Positions 4,381-17,243 of a stretch of DNA of 64,000 bases are shown here, one piece after another; within the stretch, counting starts at the first letter, position 1; every line of letters starts with the position of its first letter. The stretch is from positions 1 to 64,000 of the IMG/VR virus record IMGVR_UViG_3300031857_000053. One strand, given 5' to 3'. The notes under the pieces are model-generated. The model was not told where the DNA came from. It saw only the letters and a list, made by a program, of their open reading frames with translations, and did not search any database. The DNA is from a virus. The position numbers and the translations under genes were made by a program.

Positions 4381-5046
4381 ATGGCATCTAAAGATAAACT
4401 TATTCCTACAGCAATTATTATGTCTAATTCTTTAAAAGGAGTTAAGACTACAAATAATTCTTTTAGTATGAGTTATGGTAAAAAGAGAACTCTTTATGAC
4501 AATAACTATACAAATGCTGTATATTTTTTTGCTAGTATTTATGCTAAAGAATTAAAGATATCAGGAGGAGATGCTACTTGGAATCATAAATTAGTTGATG
4601 GTAAAAATCTTACAGCACTTTATACACCAAATAGAAATATTCACGATCTTACTTTAGGCAATGTTGTTGCTTCTTCTGAAGCTGAGTGGAATGAATTACA
4701 AGTTACTATTAGTCGCGCTTTTAATATAGTTTATCCTTTTGATATTGTAAGTGCATTAACTGCTGCTGATATTTTAGTTTATAATAATTTGATGGGTGTA
4801 TTTGATAATGGTGCCACAGTTACTTTTGCTTTAACAGGAGCTGATGGATCTCCTTTAGGAACATTTGCGCAAGGTGTTACTTTTGCAGATGCTTGGAATA
4901 CAATTAAAGTTCCTTATGATGCATCAATAGGAGTAACTACATATTTTATAGCACCTATTTTTCAACCAGTTGGAGCTACTAAATTTTATTATAGATATAC
5001 TGGTTTAAGACGTTGGTTTGATTTTACAGGATACAATTTGATATAG
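4381..5046 (+). CDS. Beta-rich hypothetical virion protein
   Basis: I place the start at the ATG at 4381 rather than the upstream in-frame TTG, because TTG adds only two residues. The 221-residue product is a mixed beta protein, neutral, with no membrane segment. It ends with an aromatic, basic tail (RRWFDFTGYNLI). I do not recognise the family. It is the last gene before a strong terminator, so it closes the fibre-lysis transcript. A structural or assembly role is plausible by location only. Confidence 0.5.
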   Translation: MASKDKLIPTAIIMSNSLKGVKTTNNSFSMSYGKKRTLYDNNYTNAVYFFASIYAKELKISGGDATWNHKLVDGKNLTALYTPNRNIHDLTLGNVVASSEAEWNELQVTISRAFNIVYPFDIVSALTAADILVYNNLMGVFDNGATVTFALTGADGSPLGTFAQGVTFADAWNTIKVPYDASIGVTTYFIAPIFQPVGATKFYYRYTGLRRWFDFTGYNLI

Positions 5047-7558: not shown

Positions 7559-8067
7559 TAAGATTATTTGATATACATGATGGAAAACTAGTACCTACAG
7601 AACACTGTTATGCTTTAAGTTTTTTAAAAAATATTATGGATGAGTATCCGACAAATTATATAACTGTCTATAAATATATATTTTATATGACTTGTCCAAA
7701 TCCACAACTTAATCCTTTTTTTAATGTTCCAGAAGAAGACAAAGAAAGTTTAATATTAGATGAGATTGAAGCTGATTTTTCAACGGAAGATGAATTAATT
7801 ATAAGAGCAAAAGATCGTTGCAATAAACTTTTTGAAACACCTACAGTTAGATCTTATCGAGGTATGGCTACTATGATGGATAGATTAGCTAGGTATATGG
7901 AGACAACTCCTATAAGTCATGGTCGAGATGGTAACATTAATTCTTTAGTTGCTGCTGCTAAAAACTTTGAAGGTATTAGAGCTTCTTTTAAAGGAGTATA
8001 TAAAGATTTACAAGAAGAACAAAAGAACCATGTTCGCGGGGGCGCAGGACTAGCTTATGATCAATAA
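7555..8067 (+). CDS. TerL-adjacent protein, candidate small terminase or partner
   Basis: A 170-residue, mostly helical, acidic protein. Conserved-looking elements are YPTNYITVYKYIFYM (residues 23-37), an acidic helix around 55-75, and RSYRGMATMMDRLARYM near residue 100. The end is Gly-rich and basic (VRGGAGLAYDQ). It overlaps the TerL start by 11 bases, the usual place for a small terminase subunit. I see no helix-turn-helix motif that would prove DNA recognition. The call is by position, and it could instead be a conserved crAss-like packaging accessory. Confidence 0.45.
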   Translation: MIRLFDIHDGKLVPTEHCYALSFLKNIMDEYPTNYITVYKYIFYMTCPNPQLNPFFNVPEEDKESLILDEIEADFSTEDELIIRAKDRCNKLFETPTVRSYRGMATMMDRLARYMETTPISHGRDGNINSLVAAAKNFEGIRASFKGVYKDLQEEQKNHVRGGAGLAYDQ

Positions 8068-10264
8068 ACCTTTTATAGAGATTCCTACTTGGGAAAATGG
8101 TAATTGGATAGATGATACAATCTTCCAAACTAGAGATGATTTTAGAATTTTTGTTCATTCTTGTTTTAAATTACCAGGTAAATATGAATTTGATGAAACA
8201 GCTCAATTATTTAATGAGCAAGCAAGAATTTTTAATACTCAAGGTTATTATTGTGTAGCTCCTGTACGAAGTAAAGATTTTGTAGATTATTGGGATTTTG
8301 AAAAGCTTAAATGTCGCAAGGGAGTTATTTTTAAAAACAATAATAAGGTTTGGTATATTCCTCGAGACTATTATATGTTTCTTAATTTCCTTAGAATAAA
8401 TGATAAAGAAAAAAAGAAATTTGATTTTCCCGGAATTCGAGATGCGCAATATCATATGGCTTTATATGAGTTACTAGCAGAACTTAATTATAAGCATTGC
8501 GCTATTTTAAAGAAAAGACAAATAGCTTCATCATATTTCCATTGTGCTAAACTTATTAATTTAATTTGGTTTGAAGAAACACCTATTCTTAAAATAGGCG
8601 CAGCATTAAAAGATCAAGTTAATGATAAAGGATCTTGGAAGTTTCTTAATGAGTATCTTTCATTTCTTAATGAGCACACAGCTTGGTATCGTCCAATGAA
8701 TCCTTGGAAGACGGGTATGTGGCAACAACAAATTGAAGAAACAAATAGTTCAGGTAGAAAATATATGAAGGGTCTCAAAGGAGTTCTTTCTATGTTAACT
8801 TTTGAAAAAGATGCTACAGCAGGTGTAGGTGGACCTTGTTCTTTATTCTTTCACGAAGAAGCAGGTATTGCACCCAAGATGGATAAAACATATGAGTACC
8901 TTAGACCTGCTTTACAATCTGGTCATATAACTACTGGATTATTTATTGCAGCAGGATCTGTTGGTGATCTTGGTCAGTGTAGACCTTTAAAGGAAATGAT
9001 ATTGAGACCAGTGCCAAATGATATTTATGCTGTAGAAACTGATCTTTTAGATGAGAAAAAAACAATAGGATTAAGTGGATTATTTATTCCAGAGCAATGG
9101 TCAATGCCTCCTTATATAGATGAGTTTGGTAATTCTCTTGTTGAAGAAGCTTTAAAAGCAATAGATGTTCTTAGAGAAAGATGGAAAAGAGAACTTTCTC
9201 CAGAACAATATCAATTAAGGATATCTCAGAATCCAACTAATATTGCTGAAGCTTTTGCTTCAAGAAGTGTATCAATTTTTCCTTTAGATTATGTTGCAGC
9301 ACAAAAGCGTAGAATTCTAGATAAAGAATATGCTTACGAATTTGTAGAACTTAATAGAGCTCCAGATGGAAAAATTGAAGCTAAAATGACAAGTAAACTT
9401 CCTATTTCAGAATTTCCTATTACAAAAAATACTGAAGATAAAACAGGAACTATTGTTGTTTGGGAAAAACCAGATACTGGAGCTTCATGGGGAACTTATT
9501 TTGCTTCTATTGACCCTGTTGGTGAAGGTAAAACAACTACTTCAGAATCACTTTGTTCTATTTATATTTATAAAAATCCAGTAGAAGTAACTAGAGTTCA
9601 TAATGAAAAAACAGAAACTTTTGTAGAACAAGATAAAATTGTTGCTAGTTGGTGTGGTCGATTTGATGATATCAATAAAACCCATGAGAGATTAGAATTA
9701 CTTATCGAGTGGTATAATGCTTGGACACTAGTTGAAAATAACATAAGTCATTTTATTAGACATATGATTTCTAAGAAATTACAAAAGTATCTTGTACCTA
9801 AAAATCAAATTCTTTTTCTTAAAGATCTAGGTGCTAATGCTAATGTGTTTCAAGAATATGGCTGGAAGAATACTGGGACTTTATTTAAAAGTCATATGCT
9901 TAGTTATTTAATTGAGTTTTTAAAAGAAGAAATAGATGTCGAAACTAAGGAAGATGGTACCATAGTAAAAAGAGTCTATGGTATTGAAAGGATCCCAGAT
10001 GTTATGGCTATGGTTGAAATGGAAGCTTATGAAGATGGTGTCAATGTCGATAGATTAGTATCTTTGGCAGCACTTGTTGCTTTTGCTAAAGTACAACAAG
10101 CTAATAGAGGTTATAAAAAACGTGTGGAATATAAGGATACTAAGCATTTGCAAAAGTCAGATAATTTGTTTAAATTAAGCAATAATGCCTTTAGACATAT
10201 TGGAAATAATAGCAAAATTAGTTCTATAAGACCACCAAAAAACATGTTTAAAAATATAAAGTAA
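8057..10264 (+). CDS. terL: Large terminase subunit (TerL)
   Basis: This 735-residue protein is the ATP-driven DNA packaging motor and headful nuclease. A degenerate Walker A-like stretch is KRQIASS (about residues 153-159). The Walker B segment is CSLFFHEEAG, with HEE at 266-268 providing the acidic residues. The C-terminal half has an RNase H-type nuclease pattern: Asp486 in SIDPVGEG, Glu560 in LVENN, and an acidic pair near 660-665 in DGVNVDRLVSLA. The length and these motifs match crAss-like terminases. It overlaps the upstream gene by 11 bases and is followed one base later by the portal gene. The tail is basic and presumably contacts portal or DNA. Confidence 0.9.
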   Translation: MINKPFIEIPTWENGNWIDDTIFQTRDDFRIFVHSCFKLPGKYEFDETAQLFNEQARIFNTQGYYCVAPVRSKDFVDYWDFEKLKCRKGVIFKNNNKVWYIPRDYYMFLNFLRINDKEKKKFDFPGIRDAQYHMALYELLAELNYKHCAILKKRQIASSYFHCAKLINLIWFEETPILKIGAALKDQVNDKGSWKFLNEYLSFLNEHTAWYRPMNPWKTGMWQQQIEETNSSGRKYMKGLKGVLSMLTFEKDATAGVGGPCSLFFHEEAGIAPKMDKTYEYLRPALQSGHITTGLFIAAGSVGDLGQCRPLKEMILRPVPNDIYAVETDLLDEKKTIGLSGLFIPEQWSMPPYIDEFGNSLVEEALKAIDVLRERWKRELSPEQYQLRISQNPTNIAEAFASRSVSIFPLDYVAAQKRRILDKEYAYEFVELNRAPDGKIEAKMTSKLPISEFPITKNTEDKTGTIVVWEKPDTGASWGTYFASIDPVGEGKTTTSESLCSIYIYKNPVEVTRVHNEKTETFVEQDKIVASWCGRFDDINKTHERLELLIEWYNAWTLVENNISHFIRHMISKKLQKYLVPKNQILFLKDLGANANVFQEYGWKNTGTLFKSHMLSYLIEFLKEEIDVETKEDGTIVKRVYGIERIPDVMAMVEMEAYEDGVNVDRLVSLAALVAFAKVQQANRGYKKRVEYKDTKHLQKSDNLFKLSNNAFRHIGNNSKISSIRPPKNMFKNIK

Positions 10265-10265
10265 C

Positions 10266-13040
10266 ATGAAGATTTTAAATGCGATGCAATTAAAGAGTGG
10301 AGCCAAAACGGAGTATAACCGTATGGGTTCCATTACACAACCTATTCAATTTTTACCTAGAAAAGAAAAAGATGAAGAGTGGATAGCTTGGAATATGGAT
10401 TGGTTAGAATGGGAGGGGCTTAAGCAAATTAGACGCAATGCTCAAAGGTTGATGAAAAACTATAAGCTTGCTAAAGGTATTATTGATAGAAATGATTACA
10501 TAGTTGAACAAGATAATGAGATGAGAGATCTTGTTGAAGTTCTTGTAAAACAAGATGATACAGCTTTAGAACTTAAATTTTATCCTATTATTCCAAATGT
10601 GATAAATGTTTTAACTAGTGAATTTGCTAAAAGAAATAACAAAATTACTTTTAGAGCTGTTGATGAAAACTCTTACAATGAGATGTTGCAGTTAAAGATG
10701 AATGCTATTGAATCAGTTTTGATGCAAGATGCTCAACAGAAGCTTATAGCTAATATGATATCTCAGGGTGCAGATCCTAATGATCCTGAATTACAAGAGC
10801 AAATGCAACAACAATTAGCTCCTGAAAATTTAAAAACATTACCTGAGATTCAAAATTTCTTTAATAAAGATTATAGAAGTTTATGTGAAGATTGGGCAAT
10901 TCACCAACATAGAGTAGATGATGAAAGATTTAAATTAGATGAACTTGAGGAAAGAGGTTTTAGAGATAGTCTTATTACAGATAGAGAGTTTTGGCACTTT
11001 AAGATGTATGAAGATGATTATGATGTAGAACTTTGGAATCCAGTTTTAACTTTTTATCACAAATCTCCTGAAGTAAGATATATTAGTCAAGGTAATTGGG
11101 TCGGTAAAATAGAAATGATGACCGTAGCCGATGTTATAGATAAATACGGTTATCTAATGACAAATGATCAATTGGAATCACTTGAAGCTATATACCCTGT
11201 ACGTTCTGCAGGTTATGCTAATCAGGGCTATCAAAATGATGGATCTTATTATGATGCTACTAAGAGTCATGATTGGAATACTAATATGCCCGGTCTTGCT
11301 TATAGACAATTTACTTCTATGTGGGATAATTACGATTATAATGGAGGTGATATTGTAAATTGGATTATGGGTCAATCTGAAGATTACTATGATGAGGGAA
11401 TGGCTTATATGCTAAGAGTCACTACTAATTATTGGAAATCTCAGCGTAAAGTGGGACATCTAACTAAAATTAATGATACAGGTGAAACAATCACTGATAT
11501 TATTGATGAAAGCTATGAGATAACAGATAAACCTATTTATAATACTCAGTTATTTAAAAATAAGACTAAAGATACTTTAATCTTTGGAGAACATATTGAT
11601 TGGATATGGATTAATCAAGTTTGGGGTGGTGTAAAGATTGGTCCTAATCGACCTACTTTCTGGGGAGCTAATAATCCTGGTGGAGTAAATCCTATTTATC
11701 TAGGTATTGATCAAAATAAAGTGGGACCACTTAAATTCCAATTTAAAGGTGATAATACTTTATATGGTTGTAAACTTCCAGTAGAAGGTTCTGTTTTCTC
11801 TGATCGTAATACTAGATCAACAGCTTTAGTAGATCTTATGAAACCTTATCAGATTGGGTACAATATAGTAAACAATCAGATAGCAGATATCTTAGTTGAT
11901 GAACTTGGAACAGTAGTATTATTAGATCAGAATGCTTTACCTCGTCACTCTTTGGGTGAAGATTGGGGAAAGAACAACTTAGCCAAGGCTTATGTTGCAA
12001 TGAAGAATTTTCAGATGTTACCGTTGGATACAACTATAACTAATACTGAAAATCCTTTAGCTTTCCAGCATTTCCAACAACTAGATCTTTCTCAGACTAA
12101 TAGATTATTATCTAGGATTCAATTAGCTAATTACTTTAAGCAACAATGTTTTGAAAATATTGGTGTTACTCCACAAAGACTTGGACAACAGATAGGTCAA
12201 TCGGATACTGCTACCGGGATAGAACAAGCTGTTGCTGGATCTTATGCTCAAACAGAGATGTATTTTATTCAACACTCAGATTATCTGATGCCAAGAGTTC
12301 ACCAGATGAGAACAGATCTTGCGCAATATTATCAATCTACTAAACCTTCTTTAAGGTTACAGTATATGACGACTAAAGATGAGAAAGTAAATTTTGAAAT
12401 CAATGGTACTGATTTATTGCTTCGTGATATAAATGTTTATTGTACAACTAAAGCTAATCATAGATCTATCTTAGAACAAATGAAGCAACTAGCTATGCAA
12501 AATAATACAGCTGGAGCCTCTATTTATGATCTAGGTGCCGTTATTCAATCTGAATCTTTAGCAGAACTTACACATACTTTAAAATCTGTAGAAGAAAAAT
12601 CTAAAGGTCAACGTCAAGAACAGATGGCTCATGAAGAGAAGATGAAGCAAATGGAAGCTGAACAGCGTACTAAAGAAAAGCAGATGGAACTTGATCATGA
12701 AGTTCTTGAAGCTGAGAAAAATAGACGTAAAGATATACTTGTAGCTGAGATTAAATCAGCAGGTTATGGAGCGATGCAAGATCTTAATGAGAATAAGATG
12801 AGTGATTTCCAAGATGTAATGAGTAACATGCGAAAAACTGAAGAATTTGATGCTACAATGAATCTTAATCGTGAGAAGGAAGTATCTAGAAATCAACATA
12901 GTCAACAGAAAATAGACTTAGAAAAACAGAAGCTCAGTCAACAAATGCTTTTAAAGAATGTAGATTATCAAATTGCAAAAGAAAATAAGAACAAATATGA
13001 TGTAGGAAAAAAAGAAAAAACACCTAAGAAAAAATCTTAA
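10266..13040 (+). CDS. Portal protein, long crAss-like type
   Basis: The 924-residue product follows TerL directly and has the layout of crAss-like portals. There is an N-terminal mixed region, a central clip/stem-like part with conserved aromatic and Gly/Asn-rich segments (for example NWIMGQSEDYYDEGMAYM near residue 365), and a long C-terminal charged coiled coil from about residue 762 to 915. The end is lysine-rich (KKEKTPKKKS). Portals form the dodecameric ring at one capsid vertex through which DNA enters and leaves. The protein is longer than typical portals of about 500-700 residues because of the coiled-coil tail. No protease site is evident. Confidence 0.85.
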   Translation: MKILNAMQLKSGAKTEYNRMGSITQPIQFLPRKEKDEEWIAWNMDWLEWEGLKQIRRNAQRLMKNYKLAKGIIDRNDYIVEQDNEMRDLVEVLVKQDDTALELKFYPIIPNVINVLTSEFAKRNNKITFRAVDENSYNEMLQLKMNAIESVLMQDAQQKLIANMISQGADPNDPELQEQMQQQLAPENLKTLPEIQNFFNKDYRSLCEDWAIHQHRVDDERFKLDELEERGFRDSLITDREFWHFKMYEDDYDVELWNPVLTFYHKSPEVRYISQGNWVGKIEMMTVADVIDKYGYLMTNDQLESLEAIYPVRSAGYANQGYQNDGSYYDATKSHDWNTNMPGLAYRQFTSMWDNYDYNGGDIVNWIMGQSEDYYDEGMAYMLRVTTNYWKSQRKVGHLTKINDTGETITDIIDESYEITDKPIYNTQLFKNKTKDTLIFGEHIDWIWINQVWGGVKIGPNRPTFWGANNPGGVNPIYLGIDQNKVGPLKFQFKGDNTLYGCKLPVEGSVFSDRNTRSTALVDLMKPYQIGYNIVNNQIADILVDELGTVVLLDQNALPRHSLGEDWGKNNLAKAYVAMKNFQMLPLDTTITNTENPLAFQHFQQLDLSQTNRLLSRIQLANYFKQQCFENIGVTPQRLGQQIGQSDTATGIEQAVAGSYAQTEMYFIQHSDYLMPRVHQMRTDLAQYYQSTKPSLRLQYMTTKDEKVNFEINGTDLLLRDINVYCTTKANHRSILEQMKQLAMQNNTAGASIYDLGAVIQSESLAELTHTLKSVEEKSKGQRQEQMAHEEKMKQMEAEQRTKEKQMELDHEVLEAEKNRRKDILVAEIKSAGYGAMQDLNENKMSDFQDVMSNMRKTEEFDATMNLNREKEVSRNQHSQQKIDLEKQKLSQQMLLKNVDYQIAKENKNKYDVGKKEKTPKKKS

Positions 13041-14465: not shown

Positions 14466-16091
14466 ATGAGCACTCCAGTTTTAAACAATGGTATATTCTT
14501 GCGTGACACGAAGTATGAAGCTTCTTCTCACGTAGATTCTTACCACTTAGTCAACATGTTAAAAGACGCTGAACCTATGGATATGGGTCCAGTAGACATC
14601 TGGGCAATGACCCAGAAGGTAGAGATGCCACTCTATCAGATGTCAAGTTTTGGTGGCAAAAATGTTATCATGGTAGATAACGCTAGAGGTGAGTATAAGT
14701 GGCAGACTCCTGTATCTCAGGATCTTCCTTATATCATCGAAGATATCGAACCAGATAATACTACTAAAGGTATAGATGGTACAACTTTCAGAATCAAAAT
14801 CAACAAGCGTGAGTTTGGTCATGGAGATATCATCACTTATGACAAGTATAATGGTGCAGAGATGTACATTACTGTGGATGATATTCTTCCAGCTAGTGAT
14901 GGTTATATCTACACTGTTCAACTTGTAAACAATGATAACTACAAGTATTTAGATAATAAATACTTAGAAGGTCAAACTAAGATTTTCCGTAAAGGTTCTG
15001 CTCGTGGTGAGTATGGAGAAAGATTCTCTGATATTACTACACGTTCTGGATACCGCGAATTTTACAATTTCGTAGGTGGATCTGAAGCACATGTTCACTA
15101 CTCTATTTCATCTCGCGCAGATATGATGACTCGTGGTGGTATGAATGCTGATGGTACAGTTCCTGTAACTGAAATCTGGAGAAACTTTGACAAATCTATG
15201 GATCCGTCAATTTCTAAGATTGAAGACATGGTTGCTACTATGGGTAAAGATTATGTAAAGCGCGCTGTTGCTAATGGAACATTGAGCAGAACATTTGTTA
15301 CTTCTATGGAAGCAGCACATCTTACTAAAATTGCTACAGATATCGAGACTTACTTAATGTGGGGACACGGTGGACGTATCAAGCAAGATGGTCCAGATGA
15401 TATCCGTATGTCAGTGGGTCTTTGGAAACAATTAGATAACTCTTTCAAAAAGGTTTATAATAAGTCTAATTTCTCTCTTGAACTATTCCGCGCTGAGCTT
15501 TATAATTTCTACGCAGGTCGTGTTGAATTCCAAGGTCCAGATCCTAAGCGTCAGCTTATTGTTCAGACTGGTATGGGTGGTATGCGCCTTGTTAATGAAG
15601 CTATTAAGCGTGAAGCTTCTAATTCTGGTTTAGTAATCCAAGCTGCTCAAAACAGTGGTATCGGAGCTATCTCTGGCCAGGGTATGGATTTAGGATTTGG
15701 ATTTGCTTATACTAGCTACGTTATTCCATTCTTAGCAAATGTTAAGTTTGTATTGAACCCAGCTTTTGACAATATCCATACAAATGATATTGAAAATCCA
15801 ATTATCGATGGTAACCCATTATCTTCTTATAGCTTTATTATCTTTGATATTACTGATACAGGAAATGATAATATCTTCTTATTGAAATTATCTTGGGATA
15901 ATCAATTGAAGTGGTGGTATCAAAACGGTACTATGGACTACATGGGAAGAACTCAAGGGTTCCAATCTAATGGACAGTTCAATGGATACCGTGTTTATAT
16001 GACACAAACAATGCCAGCTATTTGGGTAAAAGACCCAACTAAGGTATTGAAGATAGTTATGAGAAACCCAATCACGGGAGGATCATTCTAA
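14466..16091 (+). CDS. Major capsid protein, HK97 fold, crAss-like
   Basis: The 541-residue protein forms the icosahedral shell. It follows the scaffold candidate by 28 bases. Recognisable elements are the Gly/Met-rich segment QTGMGGMRLVNEAI (about residues 367-380), the strand DGNPLSSYSFIIFDI near residue 449, and the C-terminus ending NPITGGSF, all familiar from crAss-like major capsid proteins. Codon use differs visibly from neighbours: many CGT, CGC, ATC, TAC and TTC codons in a genome that otherwise prefers AT-ending codons. This fits very high expression. No N-terminal prodomain is evident. The long insertions relative to the HK97 core account for the size. Confidence 0.85.
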   Translation: MSTPVLNNGIFLRDTKYEASSHVDSYHLVNMLKDAEPMDMGPVDIWAMTQKVEMPLYQMSSFGGKNVIMVDNARGEYKWQTPVSQDLPYIIEDIEPDNTTKGIDGTTFRIKINKREFGHGDIITYDKYNGAEMYITVDDILPASDGYIYTVQLVNNDNYKYLDNKYLEGQTKIFRKGSARGEYGERFSDITTRSGYREFYNFVGGSEAHVHYSISSRADMMTRGGMNADGTVPVTEIWRNFDKSMDPSISKIEDMVATMGKDYVKRAVANGTLSRTFVTSMEAAHLTKIATDIETYLMWGHGGRIKQDGPDDIRMSVGLWKQLDNSFKKVYNKSNFSLELFRAELYNFYAGRVEFQGPDPKRQLIVQTGMGGMRLVNEAIKREASNSGLVIQAAQNSGIGAISGQGMDLGFGFAYTSYVIPFLANVKFVLNPAFDNIHTNDIENPIIDGNPLSSYSFIIFDITDTGNDNIFLLKLSWDNQLKWWYQNGTMDYMGRTQGFQSNGQFNGYRVYMTQTMPAIWVKDPTKVLKIVMRNPITGGSF

Positions 16092-16096
16092 TATTA

Positions 16097-16201
16097 GCGC
16101 CAGCGGAAGGTTATTCATGTTTCCTTCCGCATATTGGTGCCTTGCTTGGATAGTGTTTTGAAATAAGAGACACGACTGGTTCGATCCTGGTCCAAGTGCA
16201 A
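16097..16201 (+). ncRNA. Structured RNA with tRNA-like T-arm downstream of the capsid gene
   Basis: The gap after the capsid gene holds unusually GC-rich, strongly paired sequence. The first part is a nested hairpin: GCGGAAGG (16103-16110) pairs perfectly with CCTTCCGC (16123-16130), inside GCGCC/GGTGC. The second part resembles a tRNA without a D-arm. TTGCTTGG (16142-16149) pairs with CCAAGTGCAA (16192-16201, two bases bulged). GTGTTTT/GAGACAC (16153-16173) forms a hairpin with a 7-nt loop. ACTGG-TTCGATC-CTGGT (16175-16191) is a standard T-arm. Position 33 of the would-be anticodon loop is not T, so decoding is doubtful. It could be a decayed or captured tRNA, or an mRNA 3'-end element. Confidence 0.5.
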
Positions 16202-16226
16202 AAAGCTAACCTTAAACCAACATAAA

Positions 16227-17243
16227 ATGAAAGTAACACTTACAGAACTTCCTACGATCTCAGATCAAGGAAAAATTTCGATTAAACCGTTCTTTGACCC
16301 TGATGTAGATAATCTAGGTCTTCAGAATTATGGGATCTCTTTATTTGATGGAGTATTTCATGAAGAAGAATTAGCTTGTATAGAGCTTAATGGAATCAAG
16401 AGATATGTAACAGGTCTTAATCCTTATGCTCCAGAAGTTAAATTGATTCCAGATAAAGAGAGAAGAGAAGCTGTAATTTTAGATATTAATAAAGTTGTAG
16501 CAAAACTAGAAGCTGAACTAGCAACTAATATTATAGATCCAACTGATATTGATTTTTGGAATAAAGTAAAATTACTAAGACCGGATAATGATGATTTTTG
16601 GTCTACGATTAAAGTTCGTTGTGGTAACAAACCTGTTCCTTTAGATCCAGAAAATAATCCTCATGATCTAATTAGATTTTACGCAATCAATGCTGGTGGA
16701 TTTTCTATTGTAGCAAAGAGTTATGATGATGCTAAAAATAAACCAGTTGCTCCAAAGTTTTATTTAGATAAAGCGATTAATACAATTGCTACTAAAACAG
16801 AACTTAAAAAATTGCGTAATAAGGCTCTTGCTGAACTTGAGCATATGTATAAAAAGCAAGTTTCTAAGCTTATGTATGTAGCTAAAGTTGTAGATGGCAA
16901 TAGTTCTCAATATAAAAGATCAACTCCAGTTGATGTTATCTATGATAATTTAGATACATTTATTAATGGAGAAGGTGTAGAGAGAAGTGAGCGTAGAGCA
17001 GCTGAGTATTTTTTAGATACAGCTAGTCAAGATGTAGAAACTTTAAAACTTAGAGCTTTAATTAAAGATGCTAATTTTTATAAGTTATTGGCGCCTAAAT
17101 CAGATGGTATGATTTATCATATGTCTACACAAACTATTATGGGTAGAAATACTGCAGAGTGTTTAGAGTTTTTAAAGAATCCTTTAAATGATAAGATTCT
17201 AGAAGATTTATTACAAAAAGTTGAAGTACATTGGAAAAAATAA
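16227..17243 (+). CDS. Conserved capsid-block protein of unknown function
   Basis: A 338-residue mixed alpha/beta protein, slightly basic, with no membrane or signal segment. Features are a Pro/Asp-rich N-terminus (KPFFDPDVDNLG), a GNKPVPLDPENNPHDLIRFY segment near residue 131, and a helical C-terminal half rich in Lys and Leu. It follows the capsid gene and the structured RNA, and is preceded by an AAACCAAC leader at 16215-16222. I recall a conserved gene of this size at this place in crAss-like genomes. The function is not established to my knowledge. A virion or assembly component is the natural guess. Confidence 0.55.
   Translation: MKVTLTELPTISDQGKISIKPFFDPDVDNLGLQNYGISLFDGVFHEEELACIELNGIKRYVTGLNPYAPEVKLIPDKERREAVILDINKVVAKLEAELATNIIDPTDIDFWNKVKLLRPDNDDFWSTIKVRCGNKPVPLDPENNPHDLIRFYAINAGGFSIVAKSYDDAKNKPVAPKFYLDKAINTIATKTELKKLRNKALAELEHMYKKQVSKLMYVAKVVDGNSSQYKRSTPVDVIYDNLDTFINGEGVERSERRAAEYFLDTASQDVETLKLRALIKDANFYKLLAPKSDGMIYHMSTQTIMGRNTAECLEFLKNPLNDKILEDLLQKVEVHWKK

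Follow-up and report, generated by a model that had tools for sequence, protein, structure and literature searches.

What is the folded segment that lies directly behind the major capsid protein gene of an uncultured crAss-like phage, and what could it do there? The window, that is the whole stretch of 64,000 nucleotides analysed here, belongs to a viral record with a full length of 107,266 bases, and its large terminase, portal and major capsid protein were recognised through PHROG matches. The first-pass annotation had seen behind the capsid gene a tRNA-like structure devoid of a D-arm. The best explanation that we can offer, and one to which we give about even confidence as a whole, is that 16097-16201 encodes a cis-acting structured RNA forming an intercistronic 3' untranslated part of the capsid mRNA. 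The features to which the text refers are the following.

8057-10264: large terminase gene (phrog_6681)
10266-13040: portal gene (phrog_6547)
14466-16091, plus strand: major capsid protein gene, upstream neighbour of the element (PHROG phrog_11589, major head protein, E=1.5e-31)
16097-16140, plus strand: hairpin A, two-part stem, outer GCGCCA/TGGTGC, inner GCGGAAGG/CCTTCCGC
16144-16197, plus strand: three-way junction closed by P1, with arms P1, P2 and P3
16144-16151 with 16190-16197, plus strand: P1, 8 bp, GCTTGGAT with GTCCAAGT, 100% of cells paired in 7 sequences
16153-16173, plus strand: P2, hairpin GTGTTTT-GAAATAA-GAGACAC, formerly read as an 'anticodon arm'
16176-16189, plus strand: P3, CTGG TTCGAT CCTG, formerly read as a 'T-arm'
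16198-16201, plus strand: single-stranded tail GCAA just 3' of P1, its CAA invariant in the class A alignment
16227-17243, plus strand: next gene, 338 aa, without PHROG match

Two structures in the gap behind the capsid gene

The capsid stop (16091) is separated from the next gene (16227) by a gap of 135 nt, whose folding yields two structures, hairpin A followed by the three-way junction. A simple rule detected no U-tailed terminator (a G+C-rich hairpin followed by a U-run) in 16092-16226 and a simple motif search found no TAnnTTTG promoter between the two genes, so that by these rules the element is a folded RNA between two co-oriented genes with neither terminator nor promoter between them. 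The capsid protein itself has as its nearest annotated phage relative that of Leptolyngbya phage Lbo-JY46, with 28% identity over 99% of the protein, and shares only 22-28% identity with its counterparts in gut crAss-like phages. An ACCAAC leader recurs just before the start codons of many genes in these phages, for example at 16214-16221 in the window, and a Shine-Dalgarno sequence is often absent where this leader is present.

Hairpin A (fold z=-5.7) carries an unpaired ATAT on its 3' side only, and no U-run stands behind it. This stronger hairpin had been missed by the first-pass annotation, which confined the element to the junction; the junction is real, and hairpin A is part of the same unit. 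The bases and pairings described earlier were found in place, namely ACTGG-TTCGATC-CTGGT at 16175-16191 and the 7-bp hairpin GTGTTTT/GAGACAC with its 7-nt loop GAAATAA at 16153-16173. The outer helix needed correction: TTGCTTGG at 16142-16149 does face CCAAGTGCAA, but no bulge is needed, the 8 pairs of 16144-16151 with 16190-16197 being kept in every relative. In P3 the inner G-C pairs (GG/CC) are invariant in the 7 aligned sequences, a U-U mismatch occurs in the window and the loop contains the U-turn UCG. The loops of P2 and P3 could form a kissing contact in the window (GAA-UUC), but inspection by eye shows that it is not kept across the class A members.

Folding energy gives a divided answer. 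The whole intergenic region is stable (z = -3.4, with 0 of 200 shuffles as stable), whereas the 62-nt piece taken alone reaches only z = -1.3 and is equalled by 17 of 200 shuffles (about 9%). Since this piece is unremarkable by energy, conservation had to decide whether the junction is real.

Covariation in the class A relatives

Searches with the capsid gene and the next gene retrieved relatives, called class A, in which the same layout occupies the same place: L002 (identical in L106-108), L110, L103, L104, L105 and L194. The class A alignment comprises 7 sequences, window included, and became eight members with the later addition of L412; among these eight, L103 and L105 have identical P1, P2 and P3 stems. 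At least one compensatory double change occurs in 11 of the 21 predicted pairs of the alignment, and 95.8% of its cells are paired, against 31-53% in slid versions of the structure. Both sides have changed in 4 pairs of P1 and compensatory changes affect 7 of the 13 pairs of hairpin A, in each case across the 7 sequences, while the five core pairs of P2 covary with a single U-C/U-U mismatch in L002/L110. Class A P3 is too little varied for covariation, and a class A pseudoknot is likewise without covariation support.

The eighth member provides a held-out case. A covariance model built from the seven, without L412, recovered it among 53 new loci with E=1.8e-9, and its P1 (GCTCAGAT/ATCTGAGC) is fully paired by a new pair combination. 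With L412 added, the cells of P1 and P2, counted by hand, are 97.8% paired, and both sides have changed in 9 of 13 pairs; the shuffled mean is 81.6% paired, and in 2000 column shuffles neither observed value was ever attained. It is this covariation, where energy alone was insufficient, that establishes the junction. Applied to 30 whole contigs, the class A model detects a single copy per contig in the 7 element carriers and none elsewhere, and the phage genome has no extra copies at other sites.

The folded RNA behind the capsid gene is thus real and evolutionarily conserved: stem covariation across related phages, a check set beforehand, was found, and the element is present in the close relatives. 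Chance folding of the region, or a decayed or captured tRNA, would agree with the mediocre energy of the 62-nt piece and with the likeness of GGTTCGATCC to a T-arm, but the compensatory changes, the held-out L412 and the unit formed by two conserved structures leave this reading a negligible probability.

The element is not a tRNA

The arm formerly described as a canonical T-arm does not behave as one, because neither the pairs of the T-stem nor the T-loop is conserved in the relatives. The third pair of the 5-bp T-stem is broken in L002, L110 and L194 and the first in L103-105; the loop TTCGAT(C) exists only in the window, L002, L110 and L412, the others having TTCATAA, ATTATAA or ATCGCAA. 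What is conserved in P3 across class A is limited to two G-C pairs and the U-turn of the loop (UNR). ARAGORN at default thresholds, in bacterial, mitochondrial and D-armless modes, reported 0 tRNA genes in the window or in the class A regions, and at half threshold gave scattered low-score class A matches at inconsistent places and strands; the Rfam tRNA model on the 161-nt region gave no match up to E=5. The broken T-stem and the negative results of ARAGORN and of the Rfam tRNA model rule out a tRNA, and with it the two origins proposed earlier, a decayed tRNA and a captured host tRNA end; the element varies as a phage RNA. The observation that there is no room for a D-arm stands: in the window, as in the remaining class A sequences, P1 and P3 are separated by nothing more than P2 and a few unpaired bases. 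A pattern search with the T-arm motif returned true relatives together with chance matches, among which L082 and L385 were rejected.

Neither Rfam release 15, in which the window and 20 relatives have nothing at gathering level, nor the open-access literature searched yielded a description of the element. The best Rfam matches are at chance level (CyVA-1, Vax2os1_2 and STnc150, E 0.9-4), and hammerhead, pistol, twister and HDV-like ribozymes are without Rfam support.

Related elements of classes B and C

Many other relatives carry different yet similar elements in the same gap at the end of the capsid gene. Each begins with a P1 of 6-9 bp, whose 5' strand is immediately followed by a codon-like triplet; a P2 comes next in some, and then a P3 of 4-5 bp, which has a 7-nt loop, mostly Y-U-N-R-C-A-A, and is contiguous with the 3' strand of P1. 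When gaps were screened with a descriptor of this architecture, 37 of 204 matched, compared with 2-9 in shuffled gaps. The triplet forms base pairs with positions 3-5 of the P3 loop in several combinations (GCG-CGC, GCA-UGC, GCC-GGC, GUA-UAC), and in 23 sequences of classes B and C the pseudoknot and P3 together have 98.1% of cells paired, against 34-52% when slid; the corresponding values are 98.3% against 34-42% for class B and 99.2% against 31-45% for class C. The class C pattern gave four matches in cellular genomes, which look like chance, without surrounding structure, and were rejected.

The place, the order of the parts, a hairpin A with a bulge on its 3' side, the U-turn loop and the tail connect class A with classes B and C. 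Their common descent is plausible and unproven, since the class models do not detect class A across classes: with the class C model, class B is detected weakly (E 0.05-5) and class A is missed altogether, and the class A covariance model matches no class B or C element.

Two further observations concern the variety of these regions. In L230, L242, L255, L256, L283 and L289 the capsid gene is followed by much larger structured regions, which comprise several domains and span about 200-270 nt; hairpin A and the class B element are there separated by additional domains of conserved appearance, for example GGATAGTATCC hairpins and CCAGTnTAACTGGnTAAAACACC. In L024 the capsid gene is followed by a small lysine-rich ORF and then by a related element (AGCTGAGTA..GGG TTCGTAT CC..TACTCAGCT, about 4830-4885), another case of an element marking the end of the capsid unit.

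Part of a tRNA may nevertheless be imitated. The acceptor/T-arm stack in tRNA is 12 bp. The element resembles tRNA and tRNA-like structures (RF00005) by a hairpin presumably stacked on the closing stem with a stack near that length, by a 7-nt U-turn loop in most members and by a CAA/CUAA tail; it differs by the absence of a D-arm, of a conserved T-loop and of an anticodon arm, and by the class B/C loop that pairs with the triplet behind P1. According to one alternative, P1 and P3 would mimic the acceptor/T-arm half, and RNase P on the 5' side of P1, or a tRNA 3' enzyme at the tail, would cut the transcript of the capsid gene and the next gene. P3 does abut the 3' strand of P1 as a T-arm does on an acceptor stem, a presumed coaxial stack would measure about 11-13 bp (a length partly set by the search thresholds), most members have the UNR U-turn, and the tail is conserved, being N-CAA in the aligned class A members and of CUAA type in L412 and most others, with C[A/T]A at most 6 nt from P1 in 33 of 37 members, where 18% would be expected by chance. 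The unconserved T-stem and T-loop, the missing D-arm, the negative ARAGORN and Rfam tRNA searches and a loop that, in the related classes, pairs with the triplet just behind P1 and not with a D-loop make such a processing signal fairly unlikely. Its more elaborate form is unlikely: a phage-specific half-tRNA mimic, with the U-turn loop docked on the codon-like triplet and the CAA/CUAA tail, would recruit the host's tRNA maturation machinery, by which the capsid message would be cleaved and capped at its 3' end, in place of a terminator.

Exchange with terminators at the capsid-gene boundary

The element and U-tailed terminators are largely mutually exclusive. Terminators called by a simple rule occur in 3 of 37 element gaps (0 of 7 in class A) and in 102 of 149 others (p=1e-11 by a Fisher test that treats related phages as independent). 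The capsid tree requires at least 13 exchanges of element and terminator, so that the contrast is not the history of a single clade. In L164, L192 and L284 a U-tailed terminator lies upstream of the element, which is therefore not always a substitute. In the isolated crAss-like phages Lbo-JY46, csAssE-Sib and cr106_1, what follows the capsid gene is a plain hairpin or a weak structure.

The intrinsic terminators of relatives (for example L021 and L031) also stand directly behind the capsid gene and also begin with a G+C-rich hairpin; the element differs in having no U-run, a second folded domain and conserved tertiary-type features. Could it then act on the RNA polymerase, as a U-less terminator or a put-like antitermination RNA at the end of the capsid unit? 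It does occupy the position of a terminator that has repeatedly been replaced, but it lacks a U-tract, and a pseudoknot with a U-turn loop would be unusual for either device, so that we consider this improbable.

The element marks a boundary and not the capsid stop itself, as indicated by the genes that intervene in some relatives. In L433 a homing-endonuclease-like gene separates the capsid gene from hairpin A and the junction, which move together; in L465/L469 a cassette gene lies between the capsid gene and the element, and a hairpin immediately follows the capsid gene; in the sequence examined of L461, no capsid gene was recognised. Homing-endonuclease-like or helix-turn-helix ORFs are also found at the capsid stop in L015, L188, L433, L154, L166, L179, L241, L262, L279 and L332, where the stop codon is often TGA or TAG and not TAA; their insertion directly at the stop makes this boundary an insertion hot spot.

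A regulator in the 5' untranslated region of the downstream gene, riboswitch-like or acting on initiation, would suit the position of the element in the window, where 26 nt separate it from the next start codon, and in L461, L465, L469 and L433, where it directly precedes a homologue of the window's next gene. However, unrelated genes follow the element in 12 of 30 class B/C cases, and the homologues that do not follow a capsid gene (L113, L119, L121, L133) have no element, those of L113, L119 and L121 being preceded by their own TATATTTG promoter motif. In L433 and L461, moreover, a TAnnTTTG motif between the element and the next gene places the element in the upstream transcript. This reading too is unlikely.

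A binding site for a phage protein, such as feedback by a capsid or assembly protein, or an excised small RNA, would account for loop sequences that are highly conserved within a class and change rapidly between classes, and for the single copy per genome; no protein partner is known and no separate promoter was seen, and we hold this to be quite unlikely.

Model and outlook

In the model we favour, with a confidence that is again about even, the element is an intercistronic 3' untranslated structure that would end or protect the capsid mRNA and stand in for a terminator. The RNA would be read together with the capsid gene, because the window has neither a terminator nor a promoter recognisable by simple motifs before the next gene. 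The compact fold would then block 3'-to-5' exonucleases, or mark the point where processing stops, and the capsid message would gain a stable 3' end and outlive the downstream message, resulting in a differential expression of the two genes. Such an action would resemble that of the stem-loops of selective RNA processing and stabilisation (SRPS) operons, which (PMC4423207, PMC8219983) lie on the 3' side of genes inside the operon or at its end and are proposed to set transcript stability and stoichiometry. Both are folded RNAs on the 3' side of a gene in an operon. The phage element differs in that a plain hairpin is replaced by a two-part hairpin and a junction of conserved shape, with a pseudoknot in relatives, and in that it replaces U-tailed terminators.

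In conclusion, our observations reveal what appears to be a hitherto undescribed family of structured RNAs, which crAss-like phages from environmental metagenomes carry at a single fixed site, the boundary of the capsid gene, and which exchanges repeatedly with intrinsic terminators. If the tRNA-like reading were true, a DNA phage would here be setting the 3' end of an mRNA by a novel route. In the reading we prefer, this compact RNA element bears on the manner in which such phages may set the very high level of their capsid protein relative to the products of the neighbouring genes.
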